The notes below the pieces were generated by a model, which was given only the letters and a program-made list of their open reading frames with translations, did not search any database and was not told the DNA's origin. From the IMG/VR virus record IMGVR_UViG_3300047325_000251, positions 1 to 20,142 of that record: DNA of 20,142 bases; one strand, 5' to 3'. Source of the stretch: a virus. A program made the translations under genes and the position numbers. How positions within the stretch are numbered: position 1 is the stretch's first letter; each line of letters opens with the position of its first letter. Of this stretch, positions 2,588-18,820 are shown in pieces.

Positions 2588-4255
2588 ATGACCGGTAACG
2601 CAGATATTCGCAGCCATTGCGAACAGCGGCTGGCCCTGATGAAAAATGTCAGGACCGATTATGAATCGGAAGCCGAACAGATTGCCCGCTTTGCCCAGCC
2701 CGCGCGGTCGCGATTTCTGCGCGGCAGCAAGGACCAGAATGGCGGCCGTCGCCGGATGTGGAACAAGACTCTGTTCGATCCACACGGAATCGAGGCGTTT
2801 CGCACGCTGACCAATGGCATGACCAGCGGCCTGTCGAGCGCGTCGCGGCCATGGTTCACGCTGAACCTTGCCGATGAAGCCCTGATGGATGCCAATGGCG
2901 TGCGCGCGTGGCTGTCCGACGTCGAGCGGCGGCTTTATGCCTTTTTCGGTTCGACCAATTTCTATGCGGCGGCCAAATCGGGCTATGGCGAAATGGGTCT
3001 GTTCGGCACCGAAGGCTGCGTCATGGTCGAACATCCGACCGCAGGCGCAGTGTGCCATGCGCTGACCTTTGGCGAATACTGGATCGGCCTGTCCGATGCG
3101 CTGGTCCCCGATACGTTATACCGGGTCTGCCCGATGAGCGTGAAACAGGCGATCGAGACATTCGGCGATGCCTGTTCACCGGTTATCCGCGCGCTATATG
3201 ACCGCAGCCAGTACGAGGCGGCGATCGAGATCTATCACGCGATCGAGCCCGATCCGAACTACGATCCGGCGCAGTTCGGCGCCAAGCCATGGCGTTCTGC
3301 CTATTGGGATATCGCCGATCGGTCGGACACTGTGCTGCGCTTGTCGGGCTATCACGAACAGCCGTTCTGGGCACCGCGCTGGGACGTGGTCGGGGGCGAT
3401 ACCTATGGCGTTTCACCGGGGATGGAGGCCCTGCCATCGCTGCGCGAATTGCAGATGCAGGCCAAGCGGCGCAACGAGGCGATCGACCAGATGGTCAAGC
3501 CCGAAAAGATCGCACCACCCAATGTGCGGCTGACCGGAGAACCAGGGCGCGTCGTCGTCGCCGCCGGTGTCGATCGCGACCAGATCTTCATCCCCTACCC
3601 AATGCCCTATCAGGCGGTCGCGGCGATCGGCGAGGAAATGGACAAATGCCGGCGGCAAATCGATTCGCTGGCGTTTGCCGACCTGTTCAACGCGATTACC
3701 AATATGGCGGGCATCCAGCCGCGTACAGTTGAGGAAATCGCTGCGCGCAACGAGGAAAAGCTGACCCAACTGGGGCCCGTGATCGAGCGGGTGGCCAATG
3801 AAAAGCTGCAGATCGCGATCGAGCGCGGCTTCGGCATTCTGAGGCGCGGCGGGTTTCTGCCGCCGGTTCCTGCCGCGCTGTCGGAAAAGCAGATCAATGT
3901 CGAATTCGTATCGATCCTGCAACAGATGCAGCGAATGGTCGGGCTTGGCCAGATCGAGCGCGTGGTGGGTTTTGTCGGCAACCTGGCCGGTGTCCATCCC
4001 GAGGCGCTCGACAATATCGATTTCGACGAAGCGGTCGATGAATATGCTTATCGTGCGGGGGCGCCTGCACGACTGATCCGGCCGACAAAAGAGGTTGTCG
4101 CACTGCGTCAGGCCCGCGCCGCGCAGCAGGCCACGGCACAGACTTTGGCCGCCATGCCGGCGATGAAAGCCGGAGCCGATGCCGCGCGCCTGTTGGCTGC
4201 GACCGACGTGGGCAATGGTGAGACGCTGCTGTCGCGGATGTTGCCATCCGCCTGA
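2588..4255 (+). CDS. portal (head-tail connector) protein
   Basis: This 555-aa protein matches the T7 gp8-type head-to-tail connector family in length and pattern. It has an N-terminal helical region, then WNKTLFDPHGIEAFRTLTNG near residues 58-77 and GLSSASRPWFTLNL at 81-94. A central wing/stem region contains GVSPGMEALPSLRELQMQAK, and a long C-terminal helical part is Ala-rich at its end. Twelve copies would form the ring at one capsid vertex through which DNA enters and leaves. The start is set by GAGGAG at 2572-2577, which overlaps the previous stop codon and lies 10 nt before ATG 2588. The frame is open upstream to 2318, but that part overlaps the 60-aa gene and has no ribosome-binding site. 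Confidence 0.93.
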   Translation: MTGNADIRSHCEQRLALMKNVRTDYESEAEQIARFAQPARSRFLRGSKDQNGGRRRMWNKTLFDPHGIEAFRTLTNGMTSGLSSASRPWFTLNLADEALMDANGVRAWLSDVERRLYAFFGSTNFYAAAKSGYGEMGLFGTEGCVMVEHPTAGAVCHALTFGEYWIGLSDALVPDTLYRVCPMSVKQAIETFGDACSPVIRALYDRSQYEAAIEIYHAIEPDPNYDPAQFGAKPWRSAYWDIADRSDTVLRLSGYHEQPFWAPRWDVVGGDTYGVSPGMEALPSLRELQMQAKRRNEAIDQMVKPEKIAPPNVRLTGEPGRVVVAAGVDRDQIFIPYPMPYQAVAAIGEEMDKCRRQIDSLAFADLFNAITNMAGIQPRTVEEIAARNEEKLTQLGPVIERVANEKLQIAIERGFGILRRGGFLPPVPAALSEKQINVEFVSILQQMQRMVGLGQIERVVGFVGNLAGVHPEALDNIDFDEAVDEYAYRAGAPARLIRPTKEVVALRQARAAQQATAQTLAAMPAMKAGADAARLLAATDVGNGETLLSRMLPSA

Positions 4256-4319
4256 TCGGGCTGCCGAGCCACCCCATTTGTGATCACTTCGCGCCCGCGC
4301 ATGGCGCCTGACCGGGGTA

Positions 4320-4670
4320 TTGCCCGTGCCGTTCGAAGCCAAAGATGCCGAATTCCTGCTGACCCGGCCCGAATTTCGCCGGTTCCTTTTCGCCGCGATC
4401 CAAAGTTCGGGAATTCTGGTCCAGTCAGTATCGGCGGCGACCGCAGCCAGCCGAGACCTCGGCCATTTCGAAGGGCGCCGCGCGCTTGGCTTCGACCTGC
4501 TGATGCTGGTGCACATCGGCCAGAGCGAAGCCGTTCGCAACGACGATCCCGACGGGATCACGACACTTGCCCTGTGCCTGACCGAGGCGCTCTCCTGCAA
4601 GGACAACCACATTGACACAATCCACTTCCGCGACAGCGCCCGCTATGACGAGCTCCCCCACACCGCCTGA
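4320..4670 (+). CDS. Bbp19-like small phage protein
   Basis: This 116-aa protein (114 aa if it starts at GTG 4326) contains AEFLLTRPEFRRFLFAAIQS, followed by GIL, a serine/alanine stretch, then FEGRRALGFDLLMLV. The pattern 'F.RFL...I...GI ... EGRR..G..L' is that of the Bbp19-like family, named after a Bordetella phage BPP-1 protein and usually encoded between portal and scaffold, as here. No ATG is available. TTG 4320 and GTG 4326 are both possible, and GTG fits better with the GGGG run at 4314-4317. The function is not established; helper roles in head assembly are plausible from position. Its last 59 nt overlap the scaffold gene in another frame. The gap 4256-4319 before it shows no clear signal. 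Confidence 0.75.
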   Translation: MPVPFEAKDAEFLLTRPEFRRFLFAAIQSSGILVQSVSAATAASRDLGHFEGRRALGFDLLMLVHIGQSEAVRNDDPDGITTLALCLTEALSCKDNHIDTIHFRDSARYDELPHTA

Positions 4671-5265
4671 CGCCCCCTCTGCGCCAGTTGCCGAAAATGT
4701 CGCGATTGCGCCGACCGGCGCTATGCCAGCGGCACCGGCGGCTCCCCAGGCCGCTGCTACATTGGCACCGGTACCCAGCGCGCCGGACCGCTATGACTTG
4801 TCTCTCGAAGGGTTTTCGATCGATCCTTCACTCGTCCGGAATGCCGATCCCGTGTTGCGCGATCTCGGGCTGAGCAACGATGCGGCCAACAAGCTGATGC
4901 CGGTGGCGCGCGACATCATGGCGCGGACTCAGGAAACCTTGATGCGGCAGATCGAGGACGCCGCTGCCGTCCAGAAAAAGAGCTGGTACGACGCCTTTGT
5001 GGCCGACCCAGAAATCGGCGGAGCGCGGCGCAGCGAAACCGAGCACTTCGCCGCAAAGGGCCTGGATGCGCTGGGTTATCGCGACGGGCATCCGTTTCGC
5101 GAGGCGCTCAACGCCAGCGGTTTCGGCAATCACCCCGACATGCTCCGCGCGTTTCGCCGGCTGGGCGAACTGGTCGGCGAAGACGGCGGCCTGGTCCGGC
5201 CATTGACGGCCAGTAGCCGCGCCAAGCCGGTCTGGGAACGGCTTTACCCCGACGACGGGCGTTGA
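4612..5265 (+). CDS. capsid scaffolding/assembly protein
   Basis: This 217-aa protein has a disordered Ala/Pro/Thr-rich N-terminus (residues 1-58) and a helical C-terminal domain. The latter contains the hallmark series W125, DPEIGG (132-137), FG.xx.L-like spacing, FGNHPDMLRAFRRLGEL (171-187) and ED at 190-191, as in many podoviral scaffolds encoded directly before the capsid gene. It would guide capsid protein into procapsids and leave before or during packaging. The start is TTG 4612, with AAGGA at 4599-4603 eight bases upstream. An in-frame ATG at 4645 would drop 11 residues and has no clear ribosome-binding site. It overlaps the preceding gene by 59 nt and is followed by the 140-bp leader of the capsid gene. 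Confidence 0.85.
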   Translation: MTQSTSATAPAMTSSPTPPDAPSAPVAENVAIAPTGAMPAAPAAPQAAATLAPVPSAPDRYDLSLEGFSIDPSLVRNADPVLRDLGLSNDAANKLMPVARDIMARTQETLMRQIEDAAAVQKKSWYDAFVADPEIGGARRSETEHFAAKGLDALGYRDGHPFREALNASGFGNHPDMLRAFRRLGELVGEDGGLVRPLTASSRAKPVWERLYPDDGR

Positions 5266-7176: not shown

Positions 7177-7207
7177 GAAGCATGCGCAATTCAAGAGGTG
7201 GTCCGGC

Positions 7208-7849
7208 ATGGCAACGTTAGACGACATCTGCAACCTGGCGCTGGCAGAGATTGCCGCCGGCCCGATCACCGACGTTGCGGACGGTTCGATCGAAGCCCGC
7301 GAGGTCAGCCGTTTTGCCGGTCCCTTGCTCGACGAGGTTTCGCTCTGGTCCGACTGGAGCTGGGCAGTGGTCCGCACGCTGTTGACCGAAACGACCAATG
7401 ACCGCCCGGCGGAATGGACCCACGCCTATGCTGTACCCGCCAATTGTGCCCGGCCGCTGGCAATACGTCAGGTGGAAAGCGACGCCTCACATCTGGCGCA
7501 CGGCGGCCCTTTCCCTTTCCCCGTGCAGGATTCCATGCCGCTGGCATTCCTGCACGAGGGCGGCCTGATCTATACCAATGTATGGTCTGCGACGCTGGTC
7601 TACGTCGCGACGCTGACCGATCCGACGATCCTGCCGCCGCTGGTTCAACGTGCCTTCGCACTCGAACTTGCTGCACGCGTCGCGATTCCGATCCGCAAGG
7701 ATACCGGGCTGGCCCGCGAAATCGGCGCGGCCGCGGAACTGGCCCGGGCCCGCGCCATCGCCGAAGATCGTAACCAACGTGCCGCCCGACCGGCCAGCTA
7801 CATCAGCGACGCCGCCTTTGCCCGCGCCGGAATCGGGAGTGAACTGTGA
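7208..7849 (+). CDS. tail adaptor, gp11-like (tail tubular protein A type)
   Basis: This 213-aa protein opens with MATLDDICNLALAEIAAGPI and continues with a helical domain containing LLDEVSLWSDWSWAV and PAEWTHAYAVPANCARPLAI. It then has a beta part with GGLIYTNVWSATLVYVATLT and a helical end. This order ('N.AL..IG...I ... W.fA ... W...Y..P.DCLR...I ... t.......Y...') is characteristic of the T7 gp11-type head-tail adaptor that sits under the portal. A purine-rich site near 7193-7201 (AAGAGGTGG) precedes ATG 7208. The frame is open upstream to 6986, but that region crosses the 58-aa gene and the hairpin. The next gene starts inside its stop codon (GTGA). Confidence 0.88.
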   Translation: MATLDDICNLALAEIAAGPITDVADGSIEAREVSRFAGPLLDEVSLWSDWSWAVVRTLLTETTNDRPAEWTHAYAVPANCARPLAIRQVESDASHLAHGGPFPFPVQDSMPLAFLHEGGLIYTNVWSATLVYVATLTDPTILPPLVQRAFALELAARVAIPIRKDTGLAREIGAAAELARARAIAEDRNQRAARPASYISDAAFARAGIGSEL

Positions 7850-8490
7850 CGCAACGCGTACCGCAGGTCAATTTCAGCAAGGGCGAACTTGCCCCGGAAC
7901 TGTACGGCCGATTTGATGTCGATGCCTGGCAATCGGCCCTGCGCCGCGCTCGCAACGTGATCGTCATGAAATACGGCGGCGTGACCAAGCGACCCGGCAC
8001 CCGCCTCGTCGGTGCAGTCATCAACCCCGGCCAGCCCACCCGGCTGGTGCCCTTCCAGTTCTCCATGACCCAGACTTATGCGCTCGAAATGGGGCAGGGT
8101 TATATGGCGCCTTGCGCCATGGGCGGACGCATCCTTGAAAACGAGCAGCCGATCACCGCGATCACCAATGCCGTTCAGGCGAAACTGACCGTGGTATTCC
8201 ACGGCTTTGCCAGCGGCAACCTGGTCTACATCGACGGGGTCGCCGACGGCATGGGCGTGGTGCTGAATTACCGCACCTGGACGGTGACCGCGATCATCGA
8301 CGCAAATACCTTCACAATCGATGCCGACACGTCGTCGTGCCCGGCATTTGCGGGCTGCAGCGGCGGAACGGCAAATACCTCGCCGCCGATCATCGTGCCG
8401 CCGCCAACCGTTCCGCCCCCGGTAGGCACCACAGTCGCACCGACCGTGAATTACGGTGGCGGACTGGGCAGCAATCGCCAGAAGGATTGA
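7846..8490 (+). CDS. tail nozzle protein, N-terminal part (gp12-like)
   Basis: This 214-aa protein carries the start typical of large gp12-like tail nozzle proteins: NFSKGELAPELYGRFDVDAW at residues 9-28, LRRARNVIVMKYGGVTKRPG at 32-51 and RLVPFQFSMTQTYALEMG at 66-83. A beta-module follows at about 92-173. Members of this family normally continue from a '.SGGT' segment straight into 'ARVY'. Here SGGT (172-175) leads instead into a Pro/Thr/Gly-rich tail of about 38 residues and a stop. The rest of the protein is encoded by the next ORF. GTG 7846 overlaps the previous stop. The two products presumably assemble together into the tube below the adaptor. Confidence 0.85.
   Translation: MTQRVPQVNFSKGELAPELYGRFDVDAWQSALRRARNVIVMKYGGVTKRPGTRLVGAVINPGQPTRLVPFQFSMTQTYALEMGQGYMAPCAMGGRILENEQPITAITNAVQAKLTVVFHGFASGNLVYIDGVADGMGVVLNYRTWTVTAIIDANTFTIDADTSSCPAFAGCSGGTANTSPPIIVPPPTVPPPVGTTVAPTVNYGGGLGSNRQKD
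8482..8486 (+). promoter_or_regulatory. ribosome-binding site for the second nozzle ORF
   Basis: AAGGA sits in the last codons of the N-terminal nozzle ORF, eight bases before ATG 8495, while the stop of the first ORF is at 8488-8490. The spacing is near ideal, so ribosomes ending the first part can restart on the second. This supports two separate, coupled proteins over a frameshifted fusion. Confidence 0.65.
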
Positions 8491-8494
8491 ACCG

Positions 8495-10297
8495 ATGGGA
8501 GCAGCTCGCGTCTATCAGGCAGGTTCGCCGTTCAACGGCGTGGAACTGGCCGATCTCGATTACGAACAGACCGCCGATACGCTCTATCTGGCGCACCTCG
8601 ATCATCCGCCGACGAAACTCGTGCGATCGGGCAATACCAATTGGTCTTTCGAAACGGTGCAATTTGCCCCGACGATTGCTGCGCCGACCAGTTGCCTGGT
8701 CAGTGCGACCGTGGCGGATACCGATTCTGCCAACAGCGGCCTCAATTTTTTCCCTGAAAACGCCACCTATTGTGTCACCGCCGTCGACGACGACACGACC
8801 GAGGAAAGCCGCGCATCGCCGACGGCGAGCGCGTATAACGATCTCACGCTCAAGCGCAATTACAACACCTTGACATGGAATGCGGTATCCGCCGCAACTC
8901 GTTACAACGTCTACAAGGCAAACAACACCCAGTTCTATGGCTATATTGGCACAACCACCGGCCTGACCTTCATCGACGACAATATCGGTCCATCGTATAT
9001 TCAGGCGCCGCCGCTGGCCAACAACCCGTTTGCGACATCCGGCAACTATCCTTCGACCGTAACGTTGTTCCAGCAGCGTTCGATCTGGGCCCGTTCAACG
9101 AATGTGCCGCACGGGATCTGGACATCGAAATCCGGGCAGATCGAGAACATGGACTATTCGACGCCGCTGCGCGCCGATGACGGCATGAGCTTTGCCATCA
9201 TGGCCGGCCGGGTCAATTCAGTGAACCAGTTGACGTCGACGACGGCTCTGCTGGCGCTGACCAGTGACAGCGTGTTCAACATCGTCGGAACGGCAGGCGG
9301 CGGCCCGCTCGACGGGTCGGCTCCGCCAGCGATCCAGCGTCAGGTGGGCCGCGGTTCGTCACGCCTGCCACCGCTGGTGGTCGACAATGTGGTTTTCTAT
9401 GTTCCATCGATCGGGTGCTCGATCCGCAGCCTTGGCTATGATTTCACGATCAACGGCTTGCGCGCGAACGATATCACGATCTTTTCGCCGCATCTGTTCG
9501 AAGGCCATACGATCGTTTCATGGTGTTACAGCCAGGAACCGCGCTCGCTGGTCTGGGCCGCGCGCGATGACGGTGCCCTGCTCTGCTTCACCTGGGAACA
9601 GGAACAGAATGTCTGGGGCTGGACGATGTGCGAAACCGCAGGCAGCGTCCTTTCGGTCTGTTCGATCACCGAGAATGGCGAGGATCGCGTCTATCTGATC
9701 GTGGAGCGGACGATCGCGGGACAGACGGTTACGTTTGTCGAGCGCATGGTTTCGCATCTGTGGGACACGCCGGCCGATTGCTGCTTTCTCGATTGCGCGG
9801 TTTCGGCAAGTTTCCCGACGCCGCAGGCGAGTTTTACCGGTCTTTGGCACCTTGAGGGCTGCACAAATGTCGCTGGTCTTGTGGATGGTGTGCCGGTTGG
9901 CGGCTTGACCGTTACAAACGGTACTGTCGTCCTGCCCTCGGCGATCGGCACGGCTTCGAACGTTTCGTTCGGGTTGCCTTATGACGTCGATGTGGAAACA
10001 TTGCCGCTACGCATTTCGGTCCCGGGTGCGGGTTCCAACATCGGGCGCGTACAAAATCCGGCGCAGGCCGTTCTGACGTTGCGCGATAGCGGTCCGGTCA
10101 GCGCGGGCATTGGCAGCGATGACCTGTTCCCGGTCAGGCCCTCACCGCAAGACGAGCCGGGCGCCTTGTTCGACGGGACATACGTGGTTTCGATGGACAA
10201 CAAGGTTCGCACCGAATGCACGGTGTGGATCAATCAAACCGTACCTTTGCCCTTTACCCTGCTGGGGGTCGCAGTCGATCCGGTGATCGACGGATGA
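8495..10297 (+). CDS. tail nozzle protein, C-terminal part (gp12-like)
   Basis: This 600-aa protein starts MGAARVYQAGSPFNGVELAD and continues LDYEQTADTLYLAHLDHPPT, which is the middle of the usual gp12-like nozzle sequence rather than its beginning. Next come a fibronectin-type-III-like segment (about residues 85-155, with TLTWNAVSAATRYNVYKA) and FQQRSIWARSTNVPHGIWTS. A long beta-rich region ends the protein (SRLPPLVVDNVVFYVP, IVSWCYSQEPRSLVWAARDD, FVERMVSHLW). Together with the preceding ORF the total, about 814 aa, equals one full-length nozzle protein. The frame is only open from 8450, so the ATG at 8495 with its ribosome-binding site is the best start. The end overlaps the next gene as ATGA. 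Confidence 0.87.
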   Translation: MGAARVYQAGSPFNGVELADLDYEQTADTLYLAHLDHPPTKLVRSGNTNWSFETVQFAPTIAAPTSCLVSATVADTDSANSGLNFFPENATYCVTAVDDDTTEESRASPTASAYNDLTLKRNYNTLTWNAVSAATRYNVYKANNTQFYGYIGTTTGLTFIDDNIGPSYIQAPPLANNPFATSGNYPSTVTLFQQRSIWARSTNVPHGIWTSKSGQIENMDYSTPLRADDGMSFAIMAGRVNSVNQLTSTTALLALTSDSVFNIVGTAGGGPLDGSAPPAIQRQVGRGSSRLPPLVVDNVVFYVPSIGCSIRSLGYDFTINGLRANDITIFSPHLFEGHTIVSWCYSQEPRSLVWAARDDGALLCFTWEQEQNVWGWTMCETAGSVLSVCSITENGEDRVYLIVERTIAGQTVTFVERMVSHLWDTPADCCFLDCAVSASFPTPQASFTGLWHLEGCTNVAGLVDGVPVGGLTVTNGTVVLPSAIGTASNVSFGLPYDVDVETLPLRISVPGAGSNIGRVQNPAQAVLTLRDSGPVSAGIGSDDLFPVRPSPQDEPGALFDGTYVVSMDNKVRTECTVWINQTVPLPFTLLGVAVDPVIDG

Positions 10298-10767
10298 GGT
10301 CCAGGGCAAAGTCGGCGATCCATTTGGTTCCAGCGCATCGCGATCACGTGTCCCGGCTGGCAACGCGCTTGCGTCCGATCGACCGGATCGAATGCCTGGC
10401 GATGGGGCGGGAACCCGGACAGGCGCTCGACCACGGCCTGGCGGCAAGCGCACGGGCCTGGACCGCGCTGTGCGAGGGCGAACCGCATGCCATGTTTGGC
10501 GTGGTGGTCGAATCCGTGGCCGCGGGGAATGCCATCCCGTGGTTTCTGGGCAGTTCGATAGTTGCGCAGCACGGACGCGCGCTGGTCGAGCAAGGCCCGG
10601 TGATCATCGCCGCCATGCACCGCCATGGCGCCCGCCTGCGCAATTTCGTGTCCTCGGACAATCGGCAAGCGATCCGCTTGCTCGAGCACTGGGGATTTAC
10701 CGTGGAGCACGAGCCGTTCTTCCTGCGCTCGGTCGCTTTTCGGCGTTTCATCCGGGAGATCATCTGA
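10294..10767 (+). CDS. gp13-like internal protein with GNAT-type fold
   Basis: This 157-aa protein looks like the podoviral Gp13 group, which carries an acetyltransferase-like fold. Residues 53-65 hold ARAWTALCEGEPH, followed by AMFGVVVESV as the central strand pair, GSSIVAQHG, and a C-terminal SDNRQAIRLLEHWGFTVEHE (121-140). That last segment matches the final GNAT motif (N..AI.LY...GF). The acetyl-CoA binding motif (Q/R..G.G/A) is not visible, so enzymatic activity is doubtful. The known T7 counterpart acts in virion assembly. ATG 10294 overlaps the nozzle stop (ATGA), and the stop shares a base with the next ATG. Confidence 0.72.
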   Translation: MRSRAKSAIHLVPAHRDHVSRLATRLRPIDRIECLAMGREPGQALDHGLAASARAWTALCEGEPHAMFGVVVESVAAGNAIPWFLGSSIVAQHGRALVEQGPVIIAAMHRHGARLRNFVSSDNRQAIRLLEHWGFTVEHEPFFLRSVAFRRFIREII

Positions 10768-13294: not shown

Positions 13295-13858
13295 ATGGCC
13301 GATATTACCACACCCGATCTTCTGCCCGGAATTGGTGGCAGTGTTGTCAAAAAACGCCTCGTCGACATGGGTGACGGCACATTTGCCGAAATGACCGTGA
13401 CGACGCTTGCTGCCAGCGCGAATGCCGTCGGCACGGTAAACCTGGGCTCACTGGGCGGTGCCGCCACCTCGGCAAACCAGGCGCTCGGCAATGCTACACT
13501 TACGACGCTTTCTGCGCCTTACGTGGGCGCAACATCGTCGCCGCTGACGGCGACGGTAAACGATACCAACGTTCGCACCTTCGGTCCGTTCGTGCCCCAG
13601 CTTGCCCGCGAAATCTGGCTGACTGTCAACGCCACGGTCGCCGCGTCGGGCTCGGTCCAACTGCTGCGCTCGACCGACGTCGGTGCAACGAAGGTCGGAT
13701 TGACCGCTGGCGGCCTGACCATTGGTGCCTATGCGTTCAGCGCGGTTAGCGGCGCGATCGCGAACGAAATCGTGACGGTCGAGACCGACGCGGCCGCAAC
13801 ATATTTCATAAGCATTGCCCTGACCGCCGGCACCGTTGCCGTGCGTCTGGCCCAGTAA
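13295..13858 (+). CDS. small structural protein with MGDGT N-terminal motif
   Basis: This 187-aa protein is beta-rich with an Ala/Thr/Gly bias typical of tail proteins. Residues 21-32 (RLVDMGDGTFAE) match the start of the fibre protein at 17285 (RIVDMGDGTWAE), and both begin MAD. This suggests a shared attachment or assembly module. The middle has GSLGGAATSANQALGNATL, a linker style seen in phage fibres. The rest (about 75-187) could be a single jelly-roll-like domain: FVPQLAREIWLTVNATVAAS, then SVQLLRSTD, and a TDAAATYFISIALTAGTVAV ending. AAGGAG at 13283-13288 sets the start. It is the first gene after the terminator. The role is probably a baseplate-like or fibre-linking subunit; the family is not recognised. 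Confidence 0.7.
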   Translation: MADITTPDLLPGIGGSVVKKRLVDMGDGTFAEMTVTTLAASANAVGTVNLGSLGGAATSANQALGNATLTTLSAPYVGATSSPLTATVNDTNVRTFGPFVPQLAREIWLTVNATVAASGSVQLLRSTDVGATKVGLTAGGLTIGAYAFSAVSGAIANEIVTVETDAAATYFISIALTAGTVAVRLAQ

Positions 13859-17008: not shown

Positions 17009-17292
17009 ATGTCGGCTGGCTTAAGGACGCCTTGACCGGCCCAGACAACCAGACCGTTGCGGTTGGTCGCCTGCTCGGGTGCGCACTCGCAGTGGTTCTG
17101 CTGATCGCCATTCCGATAACGGCAGTCGCGACGATCCTTTCGGGCCGCTGCGACGTGCGGGTCTGGCGGGAATTGCTGGGCTCGCTTGGACTTTACGTTC
17201 CGCTCGTGGTCGGCGCGATCACCGGCCTGATCTGGGGGACAAATTCGACCGAGCCGAAGACCGCACACAAGGAAGGTATGGAAAATGGCTGA
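16996..17292 (+). CDS. two-transmembrane holin candidate
   Basis: This 98-aa protein begins MAGLNVGWLKDALTGPDNQT and has two hydrophobic segments, about residues 24-48 (GRLLGCALAVVLLIAIPITA) and 61-81 (LGSLGLYVPLVVGAITGLIW). A charged tail follows (ends HKEGMENG). The 'L.G.DN.T..lGR' start is a pattern seen in small membrane proteins beside endolysins in alphaproteobacterial phages. Two segments with both ends probably in the cytoplasm fit a class II holin, which would form the lesion that releases the endolysin. It overlaps the endolysin by 13 nt and the fibre gene by 8 nt. No spanin pair is evident nearby. Confidence 0.72.
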   Translation: MAGLNVGWLKDALTGPDNQTVAVGRLLGCALAVVLLIAIPITAVATILSGRCDVRVWRELLGSLGLYVPLVVGAITGLIWGTNSTEPKTAHKEGMENG

Positions 17293-18820
17293 TGAAGTTC
17301 TTCCCAATGCAGTCGGCCTGGGCAACTACCCGCACCGCATTGTCGATATGGGCGATGGCACCTGGGCGGAAAAGGTTTTTGCCGTGGTTGCCGTCGGCGG
17401 GACGCAAGTGTCCTCCCTCAACCCCCTGCCCGTGGTCGTCGCATCAGGCGCGACATCGCTCGCCGATCAATCGGTCGTTGATAGCGCGGGTATTTATTGG
17501 CTCGTAAGGGATAACGGATCAACGCTGACGTACGTAAACTGGTCGACCGGAACGGCTGGCACGCCAAGCGCGCCAGTGTCTCCAGCGGGCAAATTGACCG
17601 GCGAACAACTCATATCGACCCAGTACACTGTCATGATCGCAGGTAGTGGATACGCGGTCGGCGATGTCCTTGCACATATTGTGATACTCAACATCGCGAC
17701 AAGCCCTGCGAGTGTGCTGGCCAGCGTCTGGGCGAACATTTCCCAGAGTACGATATTGTCGGCCAATCCTTTGTCGGCCAACCTGACTCAGTCGTCCGCA
17801 GCCGTTGCCATTTCATCCATGCCACCGCTTCCCGCCGGCAGCAATGCGATCGGTTCGGTTGCTGTCAGTGCACTGCCCGCAATTCCTGCAGGCGCGAACG
17901 CAATCGGTTCAGTTGCAGTAAGCAGCCTTCCCGCGCTGCCTCCTGGGTCGAACACGATCGGGACCGTCAGCATCGGTGGCTCGTTGCCCGCATTCTCGGC
18001 CACTCCCGCAGTCAACGTGGCCACTCTTCCAGCGCTCCCGCCAGGGGGGAACCTGATCGGCGCGGTCAATCTCGACATCGCCGGTGCAGCGCTTTCGGCG
18101 AGCAACGCCATGCCCGTGCTTGATGCCTATCTGGCACCAAGTTCGTCATCCTGGACCACGGCTACGGCAGTAAATACCGCATTAACGTTTTCCACCAACG
18201 GCTATGATACGGCAATCGTGACTTTGGTCGCCAGTGCAAGTTTCGCCGGCGGCGCGGTCGTGTTCGAAGTGTTCGACGGTGCCAACTGGATGCCGGTAAA
18301 GGCGGCGAACATCCTGAATTATACGACGACGGCTGCGACGATCGCACCGGCGGCGAACACCGCCAACGGCTATCAGATTTCGATGGCCGGCTTTCCGCAA
18401 TTCCGCGTGCGACTATCGAGCGCGCTTGCTGCAGGAAGCCTGGGCGTCACTGCGATCATATCGTCGGCACCCGATGTGTCGCTTGTGACTGTCGGCCTCG
18501 ATCCGACCCAACCACTGCCCGCGGGAACCAATACTCTGGGCGCTGTGACCCAGGCGAACCCGGTCACGATCAGTGCCGGCCAGCAAACGCTGACCGCAGG
18601 CGCCGCCGCGCTGCCATCGCAAGCACTGACGAACGGCGTTGTCCTCACAGCTCTCACGACCAACATGGGCACGGTCTACGTGGGCCCGGCGGGCGTGACC
18701 GCATCGACCGGCTATCCACTGAATGCCGGCCAGTCTGTGTCCTACGCTGTGACCAACCAAGGCGCCATTTTCATCATCGGCACCAATACGACTGACAAAG
18801 TCGCATTCACAGGGAATTGA
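17285..18820 (+). CDS. tail fibre-like protein with 18-residue repeats
   Basis: This 511-aa protein starts with a module also seen at 13295 (HRIVDMGDGTWAE, residues 17-29). A beta domain follows (about 50-165), then a repeat region at 182-264 with three clear 18-residue units such as LPAGSNAIGSVAVS and LPALPPGSNTIGTVSI, and related degenerate units. A further unit lies at 411-421 (LPAGTNTLGAV). Repeats of this type are common in phage tail and fibre proteins and may form an extended shaft. Between the repeats, residues about 290-400 form a globular beta domain (FEVFDGANWMPVKA, YQISMAGFPQFRVRLS). The ribosome-binding site is AAGGAAGG at about 17269-17276. The exact virion role is unproven; a fibre or connector holding the SGNH enzyme encoded next is plausible. 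Confidence 0.75.
   Translation: MADEVLPNAVGLGNYPHRIVDMGDGTWAEKVFAVVAVGGTQVSSLNPLPVVVASGATSLADQSVVDSAGIYWLVRDNGSTLTYVNWSTGTAGTPSAPVSPAGKLTGEQLISTQYTVMIAGSGYAVGDVLAHIVILNIATSPASVLASVWANISQSTILSANPLSANLTQSSAAVAISSMPPLPAGSNAIGSVAVSALPAIPAGANAIGSVAVSSLPALPPGSNTIGTVSIGGSLPAFSATPAVNVATLPALPPGGNLIGAVNLDIAGAALSASNAMPVLDAYLAPSSSSWTTATAVNTALTFSTNGYDTAIVTLVASASFAGGAVVFEVFDGANWMPVKAANILNYTTTAATIAPAANTANGYQISMAGFPQFRVRLSSALAAGSLGVTAIISSAPDVSLVTVGLDPTQPLPAGTNTLGAVTQANPVTISAGQQTLTAGAAALPSQALTNGVVLTALTTNMGTVYVGPAGVTASTGYPLNAGQSVSYAVTNQGAIFIIGTNTTDKVAFTGN
17828..18076 (+). repeat. coding repeats, 18-residue (54-nt) units
   Basis: Three consecutive 54-nt units encode L/IPAGxNAIGSVAVSxLPA-type sequence; two less regular units follow up to 18076. 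The protein repeat is well conserved, but the DNA differs at many third positions (for example gcgatcggttcggtt against gcaatcggttcagtt). It is therefore old and kept by selection rather than a fresh duplication. Confidence 0.75.

Follow-up and report, generated by a model that had tools for sequence, protein, structure and literature searches.

The nozzles of podophages whose structures have been solved are characterized by single-chain subunits and gate the release of DNA. Known nozzles of the T7 type (gp12, or tail tubular protein B, TubeB) consist of one chain of ∼680–830 residues, and their genes stand in the order adaptor–nozzle–internal virion protein. Within this family, Bbp13 of phage BPP-1 and gp12 of epsilon15 share the gene order and a related capsid group with the locus described here, and each is encoded by one uninterrupted gene. 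This locus lies in IMG/VR virus record IMGVR_UViG_3300047325_000251, of which positions 1 to 20,142 (20,142 nucleotides, hereafter the window) were analysed. The window retains the gene order expected for gp12/TubeB, and its GP7-type capsid protein falls in the same family as epsilon15 gp7; its nozzle, however, is encoded by two open reading frames (ORFs), ORF1 and ORF2 (Table 1), the first of which ends in an FCCH-like barrel and a Pro/Gly tail. We consider it very probable that this podovirus nozzle is built of two separately translated chains, termed chain A and chain B.

Residues 1–107 of ORF1 align to positions 2–108 of the phrog_376 (tail protein) profile (1e-32) and residues 4–595 of ORF2 to positions 102–706 (7e-136), such that the two ORFs jointly span positions 2–706 of 712. 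The closest solved structure of the T7-type family is the Carin-1 nozzle (PDB 8ck1), which is matched N-terminally, centrally and C-terminally by the ORFs (sequence profile, 3e-123), ORF1 corresponding to its residues 14–115. The best match of ORF2 among cultured phages is BPP-1, at ∼34% identity. As both ORFs match the same PHROG from end to end, they together spell one nozzle protein, in agreement with the preliminary description of the window, and the single polypeptide per subunit that is a trait of the family is replaced here by two ORFs with a stop and a restart. The coordinates given in that description for the ORFs, the stop, the start at ATG 8495, the ribosome-binding site at 8482–8486 and the opening of the ORF2 frame from 8450 are correct base for base. 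The GTG start of ORF1 overlaps the stop of the upstream adaptor gene, and SGGTA at residues 172–176 is followed by 38 Pro/Thr/Gly-rich residues up to the end of the chain, which are the ∼38 codons that had been placed at the break.

A scan of viral contigs returned 63 relatives of ORF2 (96 to ∼52% identical), and further scans added viral contigs and prophages of Novosphingobium, Sphingobium, Sphingomonas and Croceibacterium. Among the strains with such a prophage are Novosphingobium sp. FSW06-99 (L080) and Sphingobium xenophagum NBRC 107872 (L097). The deduplicated set comprised split nozzles, of which 94 lack and 27 carry a Hint domain, as well as 20 uninterrupted nozzles, nine of them from the clade of the window and 11 from phage records outside it; phage UFJF_PfDIW6 (L067), one of the 94, was left out on account of its different break, which gives 120 split nozzles with the window included. 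The split, the Pro/Gly tail and the stop–restart are kept in all 120, down to ∼50% identity, so that both the split and the Pro-rich tail, for which a search in related phages had been advised, are conserved. In ORF2 trees, the split nozzles form one clade of Sphingomonadales phages and prophages (Shimodaira–Hasegawa-like approximate likelihood ratio test, 100) with a few fused members nested inside, which implies that the split is old and that loss, or replacement through recombination, has occurred on a few occasions. The nine uninterrupted clade members are L042/L093, L102, L200, L202, L043, L045, L046, L049 and L087; some of these nested nozzles lack the barrel, and re-fusion or recombination with single-gene nozzles may account for them. 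The earlier statement that family members run on without a break thus stands for nozzles outside the clade, but not inside it, where the break is the rule, and at the very point that had been named (SGGTA, then the restart).

Bacterial genomes were sampled from the class (385 genomes) and the order (399 genomes) of the host of L104, a Hint-bearing relative. In the class sample, nozzle N-termini besides that of L104 itself lie in open frames of at least 546 codons, the exception being one short degenerate fragment. Single-gene nozzles are the pattern in other alphaproteobacterial genomes, as in other phages. In the order sample, the eight best matches, from seven genomes, are all split; the fused nozzle already met as L042 comes ninth, and weaker matches belong to other nozzles, in open frames of at least 745 codons save for L377. 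The latter, a short nozzle frame of 311 residues in a Sphingomonadales genome (L377:832–1767, reverse strand), is possibly a decayed copy; it was rejected as a further split case since it has no barrel, tail or restart at the break site of the window.

The simple alternative raised in the preliminary description, that a sequencing error or a recent frameshift or nonsense mutation interrupts a normally single nozzle gene, draws on cultured phages: outside the clade, those whose nozzles are related (BPP-1, epsilon15, Tr60_Ab31, Jess A and others) have one gene. An uninterrupted frame near 8450–8490, named in that description as a refuting sign, was looked for in relatives; the closest relative, 96% identical, and 119 other distinct ones show the same stop-plus-restart layout. 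The ratio of nonsynonymous to synonymous substitution rates (dN/dS) between the window and eight close relatives of equal length is 0.01–0.11 for the nozzle part of ORF1, its most constrained part, 0.15–0.36 for the barrel, 0.10–0.41 for the Pro/Gly tail and 0.05–0.13 for ORF2. The value for the tail indicates that it is translated in the frame of ORF1 under purifying selection, and its length and Pro/Gly pattern are kept. With the layout common to 120 distinct split nozzles and the tail constrained, an error or recent mutation is scarcely credible and is rejected on these comparisons as the explanation; the two-ORF layout is instead an old working arrangement of one Sphingomonadales phage clade. 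A different alternative is that programmed ribosomal frameshifting or readthrough yields a fused nozzle, ORF1 being what is made when translation stops in frame. In its favour, stop and start overlap or lie no more than 5 nt apart in almost all relatives: among the 84 junctions counted first, from which all junction statistics out of 84 are drawn, 57 have a one-base overlap (TGATG or TAATG), six have ATGA and 13 a 4-nt gap, with few others. The hallmark of programmed frameshifting is a constant frame relation between the two ORFs. Here, all three relations occur (ORF2 is +2 relative to ORF1 in 98 of the 120, +1 in 20 and 0 in two), which argues against it, as do the ORF2 frame, open for at most five codons upstream of the ATG in 21 of 84 relatives, and the retained ORF2 start codon (ATG in 116, GTG in three, TTG in one). 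In L096, moreover, 922 nt separate ORF1 from ORF2 and contain mntP (PF02659, 5e-48; 4101–4673, reverse strand); an identical 922-nt spacing between the nozzle ORFs is present in L187, a metagenomic contig from another source. The gene mntP encodes a manganese efflux pump, and its place between the nozzle ORFs is an arrangement that separate cistrons would allow. Frameshifting or readthrough is thus very improbable, and the two-chain reading of the preliminary description is supported by the conserved stop–restart, both chains being presumably present in the virion. A Shine–Dalgarno-like 4-mer precedes ORF2 in 52 of 84 relatives, and we propose that ORF2 would be translated by coupled termination–reinitiation, aided by its own ribosome-binding site, to give matched amounts of the two chains.

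The break lies at a site that is variable across the family. In single-gene relatives, this site falls between ‘..GGRVLDG’ and ‘VYEIANPY..’; it is empty in BPP-1, epsilon15, L043, L045 and L049, is occupied in Jess A and L075 by a short domain that, judged by eye, resembles a carbohydrate-binding module, and holds an FCCH-like barrel in Vibrio phage MZH0603, Nostoc phage Nsp-JY18, Pelagibacter phage Baldr, L042 and the alphaproteobacterial L337–L342. As a separate observation, L066 and L075 have the carbohydrate-binding-module-like domain exactly where the window has its barrel, which marks a hot spot of nozzle decoration. The FCCH-bearing single-gene nozzles resemble the window in barrel and site, and several of them also end the barrel with GGTA–ARxY; there, however, the chain reads through GGTA|ARxY (e.g. 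SGGTAARLYTLATPY in L337) with neither Pro/Gly tail nor stop, whereas in the window clade the barrel is followed by the tail, the stop and the restart at this point. Window ORF1 scores E = 9e-4 and 19.7 bits against the E1 FCCH family (PF16190), below the cut-off of 29.5; the homologous domain is above cut-off in L104 (3e-12, 46.9 bits) and in L096, and the L104 barrel model matches the FCCH region of Uba6 in Foldseek at ∼2 Å root-mean-square deviation. We read ORF1 as a nozzle N-terminus with an inserted E1-FCCH-like barrel.

Structure models of relatives bear on how the two chains may form one fold. In the L104 ORF1 model, the nozzle segment (residues 1–90) has block-mean predicted local distance difference test (pLDDT) values of 33–51, with ∼89 for the barrel and ∼94 for the Hint domain, whereas the equivalent segment (11–100) of the fused homologue L042 reaches 63–90. 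The L042 model matches 8ck1 (Foldseek, 3e-39), T7 gp12 and other nozzles, with the propeller, platform and fibre dock of the nozzle fold in this relative. In T7 gp12, three strands of the platform barrel derive from the N-terminal 45 residues (PMC6702177). That the segment is confident in the fused model only suggests, together with the T7 platform strands, that chain B relies on chain A for a complete platform, a proposal drawn from models of two different relatives rather than from the chains of the window. The N-terminal strands of chain A would thus co-fold with chain B to give a complete platform beneath the adaptor, and the barrel and tail would project outward from the nozzle; our guess is that the tail serves as a flexible tether or as a dock for another tail part. 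Several points weigh against a two-chain nozzle. The nine uninterrupted clade members illustrate that a single chain works too; the L042 model is middling (mean pLDDT 72) with a poorly modelled barrel; the models compared are of different relatives, L104 and L042, each as a single chain; and the evidence for two chains comes from sequences and models.

In 27 relatives, the Pro-rich, Gly-rich tail of ORF1 runs on into a Hint domain of ∼110 residues, characterized by CVxxDTxILxADG at its start, a block-B His and LSHN at its end; no Hint domain was found in ORF1 of the window. Profile searches retrieved PDB inteins and bacterial intein-like (BIL) domains (6y75, 6e-6), NCBIfam intein models match weakly, and Foldseek with the L104 model gave 6y75 (3e-9), the DnaB intein 1mi8 (1e-7) and hedgehog 1at0 (2e-4). 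In none of the seven aligned members is the Hint Asn followed by Cys, Ser or Thr; the next residue is Ile, Lys or Phe, so that, by analogy with A-type BIL domains (PMC7765530, PMC7664689), cleavage is expected instead of splicing. The ORF1 of these relatives shares with the A-type domains the Hint fold, Cys1, the block-B His, the His-Asn and the missing nucleophile (PMC7765530, PMC7664689), but differs in that Hint caps the C-terminus of a tail structural protein and is followed by only ∼5–14 residues. The Hint domain is predicted to cleave itself off in these relatives, and this would leave a Pro-rich, poly-Gly-ended chain like that encoded directly by the window, whose tail, ending YGGGLGSNRQKD, looks like the stalk without its Hint cap. 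Hint-bearing members occupy several basal branches (L291, L299, L104, a clade of 24 rows of which 20 have Hint, L178 and L041), and Hint distances track ORF2 distances (Spearman 0.81; 0 of 1000 permutations as high). This fits ancestral presence followed by losses, with repeated gain as the alternative, given a Hint tree that is short and poorly resolved. The same Hint domain also sits at the C-terminal end of large phage tail proteins of unrelated kinds, in open frames of ∼650–1140 codons (L268, L272–L274 and L276–L330, at ∼3001–3400 in most), often with Gly-rich sequence before it and a short end after it; in the poorly resolved tree, the Hint domains of some of these other tail proteins fall among those of the nozzles. 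Hint caps are thus a general feature of phage tail proteins.

The possible roles of the two products were weighed against these data. Because ORF2 by itself spans phrog_376 positions 102–706, it might form the nozzle alone, with ORF1 as a regulatory or assembly-only fragment that is no part of the virion; within ORF1, however, no part is more constrained than the N-terminal segment, which is present in all nozzles of the family and supplies platform strands in T7 (PMC6702177), and this renders such a role quite improbable. Alternatively, the chains could be made apart and joined later, the Hint domain forming a Gly thioester through which ORF1 is ligated to the Ser/Gly exposed at the N-terminus of ORF2. 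The intact Cys1, block-B His and His-Asn would permit such chemistry. Of the 120, 117 have Gly or Ser as ORF2 residue 2 (window codon 8498–8500) and the few others Pro or Thr; among the 27 relatives with a Hint domain, this residue is Ser in 23. Where Ser is not forced by the overlap, it is found at five of nine Hint-bearing junctions versus none of 83 without Hint, in relatives that are not independent. The Ser may thus leave room for ligation, while the ATGA overlap, which forces it in part, and shared ancestry may explain it too; as most relatives and the window have no Hint domain, ligation cannot be required there, and we regard it as improbable. A broader account, which we hold to be unlikely, begins with the insertion of an intein-like element at GGTA|ARxY of an FCCH-bearing nozzle gene; the element would then have lost splicing and turned the gene into two cistrons. 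Hint-bearing members would process the Pro/Gly stalk via the Gly thioester and attach it by a covalent bond, either to the Ser/Gly at the N-terminus of chain B or to some other part of the tail, and the window lineage would have lost Hint and kept the two chains and the stalk.

No published two-chain or Hint-tailed nozzle was found in the open-access literature. Pseudomonas phage UFJF_PfDIW6 resembles the window in that its nozzle is given as two genes, g11 and g12, each reported to encode a tail tubular B protein (PMC8951688). Its break (L067:2056–4525) is elsewhere, however, with a 20-nt gene overlap, an apparent short local duplication and no barrel, tail or restart, and it was rejected as the same arrangement since local duplication or error is the probable cause. 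Dual-TubeA phages (PMC10386132) were likewise set aside as a precedent because they concern the adaptor. LtfA and LtfB of T5-like phages resemble the window in that two proteins stand in place of one tail protein; they form a fibre rather than a nozzle and belong to an unrelated family (PMC4728585).

Table 1. Features of the split nozzle locus and its flanking genes in the window.
Feature	Position	Strand	Evidence and remarks
Tail adaptor (gp11/TubeA-like) gene	7202..7849	+	phrog_394 tail protein, 2e-36; upstream, overlaps ORF1 start
ORF1, nozzle chain A, 214 aa	7846..8490	+	GTG start, TGA 8488–8490; phrog_376 and PDB 8ck1 matches
ORF1 residues 1–96, N-terminal nozzle segment	7846..8133	+	phrog_376 and 8ck1 matches
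ORF1 residues 97–176, inserted small beta-barrel, E1 FCCH-like	8134..8373	+	PF16190, Foldseek (relative L104)
ORF1 residues 177–214, Pro/Thr/Gly-rich C-terminal tail ending YGGGLGSNRQKD	8374..8487	+	Alignment, dN/dS
AAGGA ribosome-binding site for ORF2	8482..8486	+	Sequence; within the end of ORF1
Junction: stop TGA 8488–8490, 4-nt gap, start ATG 8495–8497	8488..8497	+	
ORF2, nozzle chain B, 600 aa	8495..10297	+	ATG start; profile matches
Internal virion protein gene	10297..10767	+	phrog_308, 9e-30; downstream, overlaps ORF2 end

Elsewhere in the window, the products of 13295–13858 and 17285–18820 have a common N-terminal motif, RxVDMGDGTxAE, and the latter additionally contains imperfect repeats of the kind PLPAGSNAIGSV; Pfam returned nothing convincing for either product.

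A stable, old two-chain nozzle illustrates where the fold tolerates a break; the place is both an insertion site, filled with different domains in different groups of phages, and a natural point at which to split the protein for tagging. For the Hint domain on the tail of relatives, the testable question arises whether self-processing has a part in tail assembly, and an intein origin with ligation of the stalk, if true, would represent a hedgehog-like autoprocessing step in the assembly of a phage tail.

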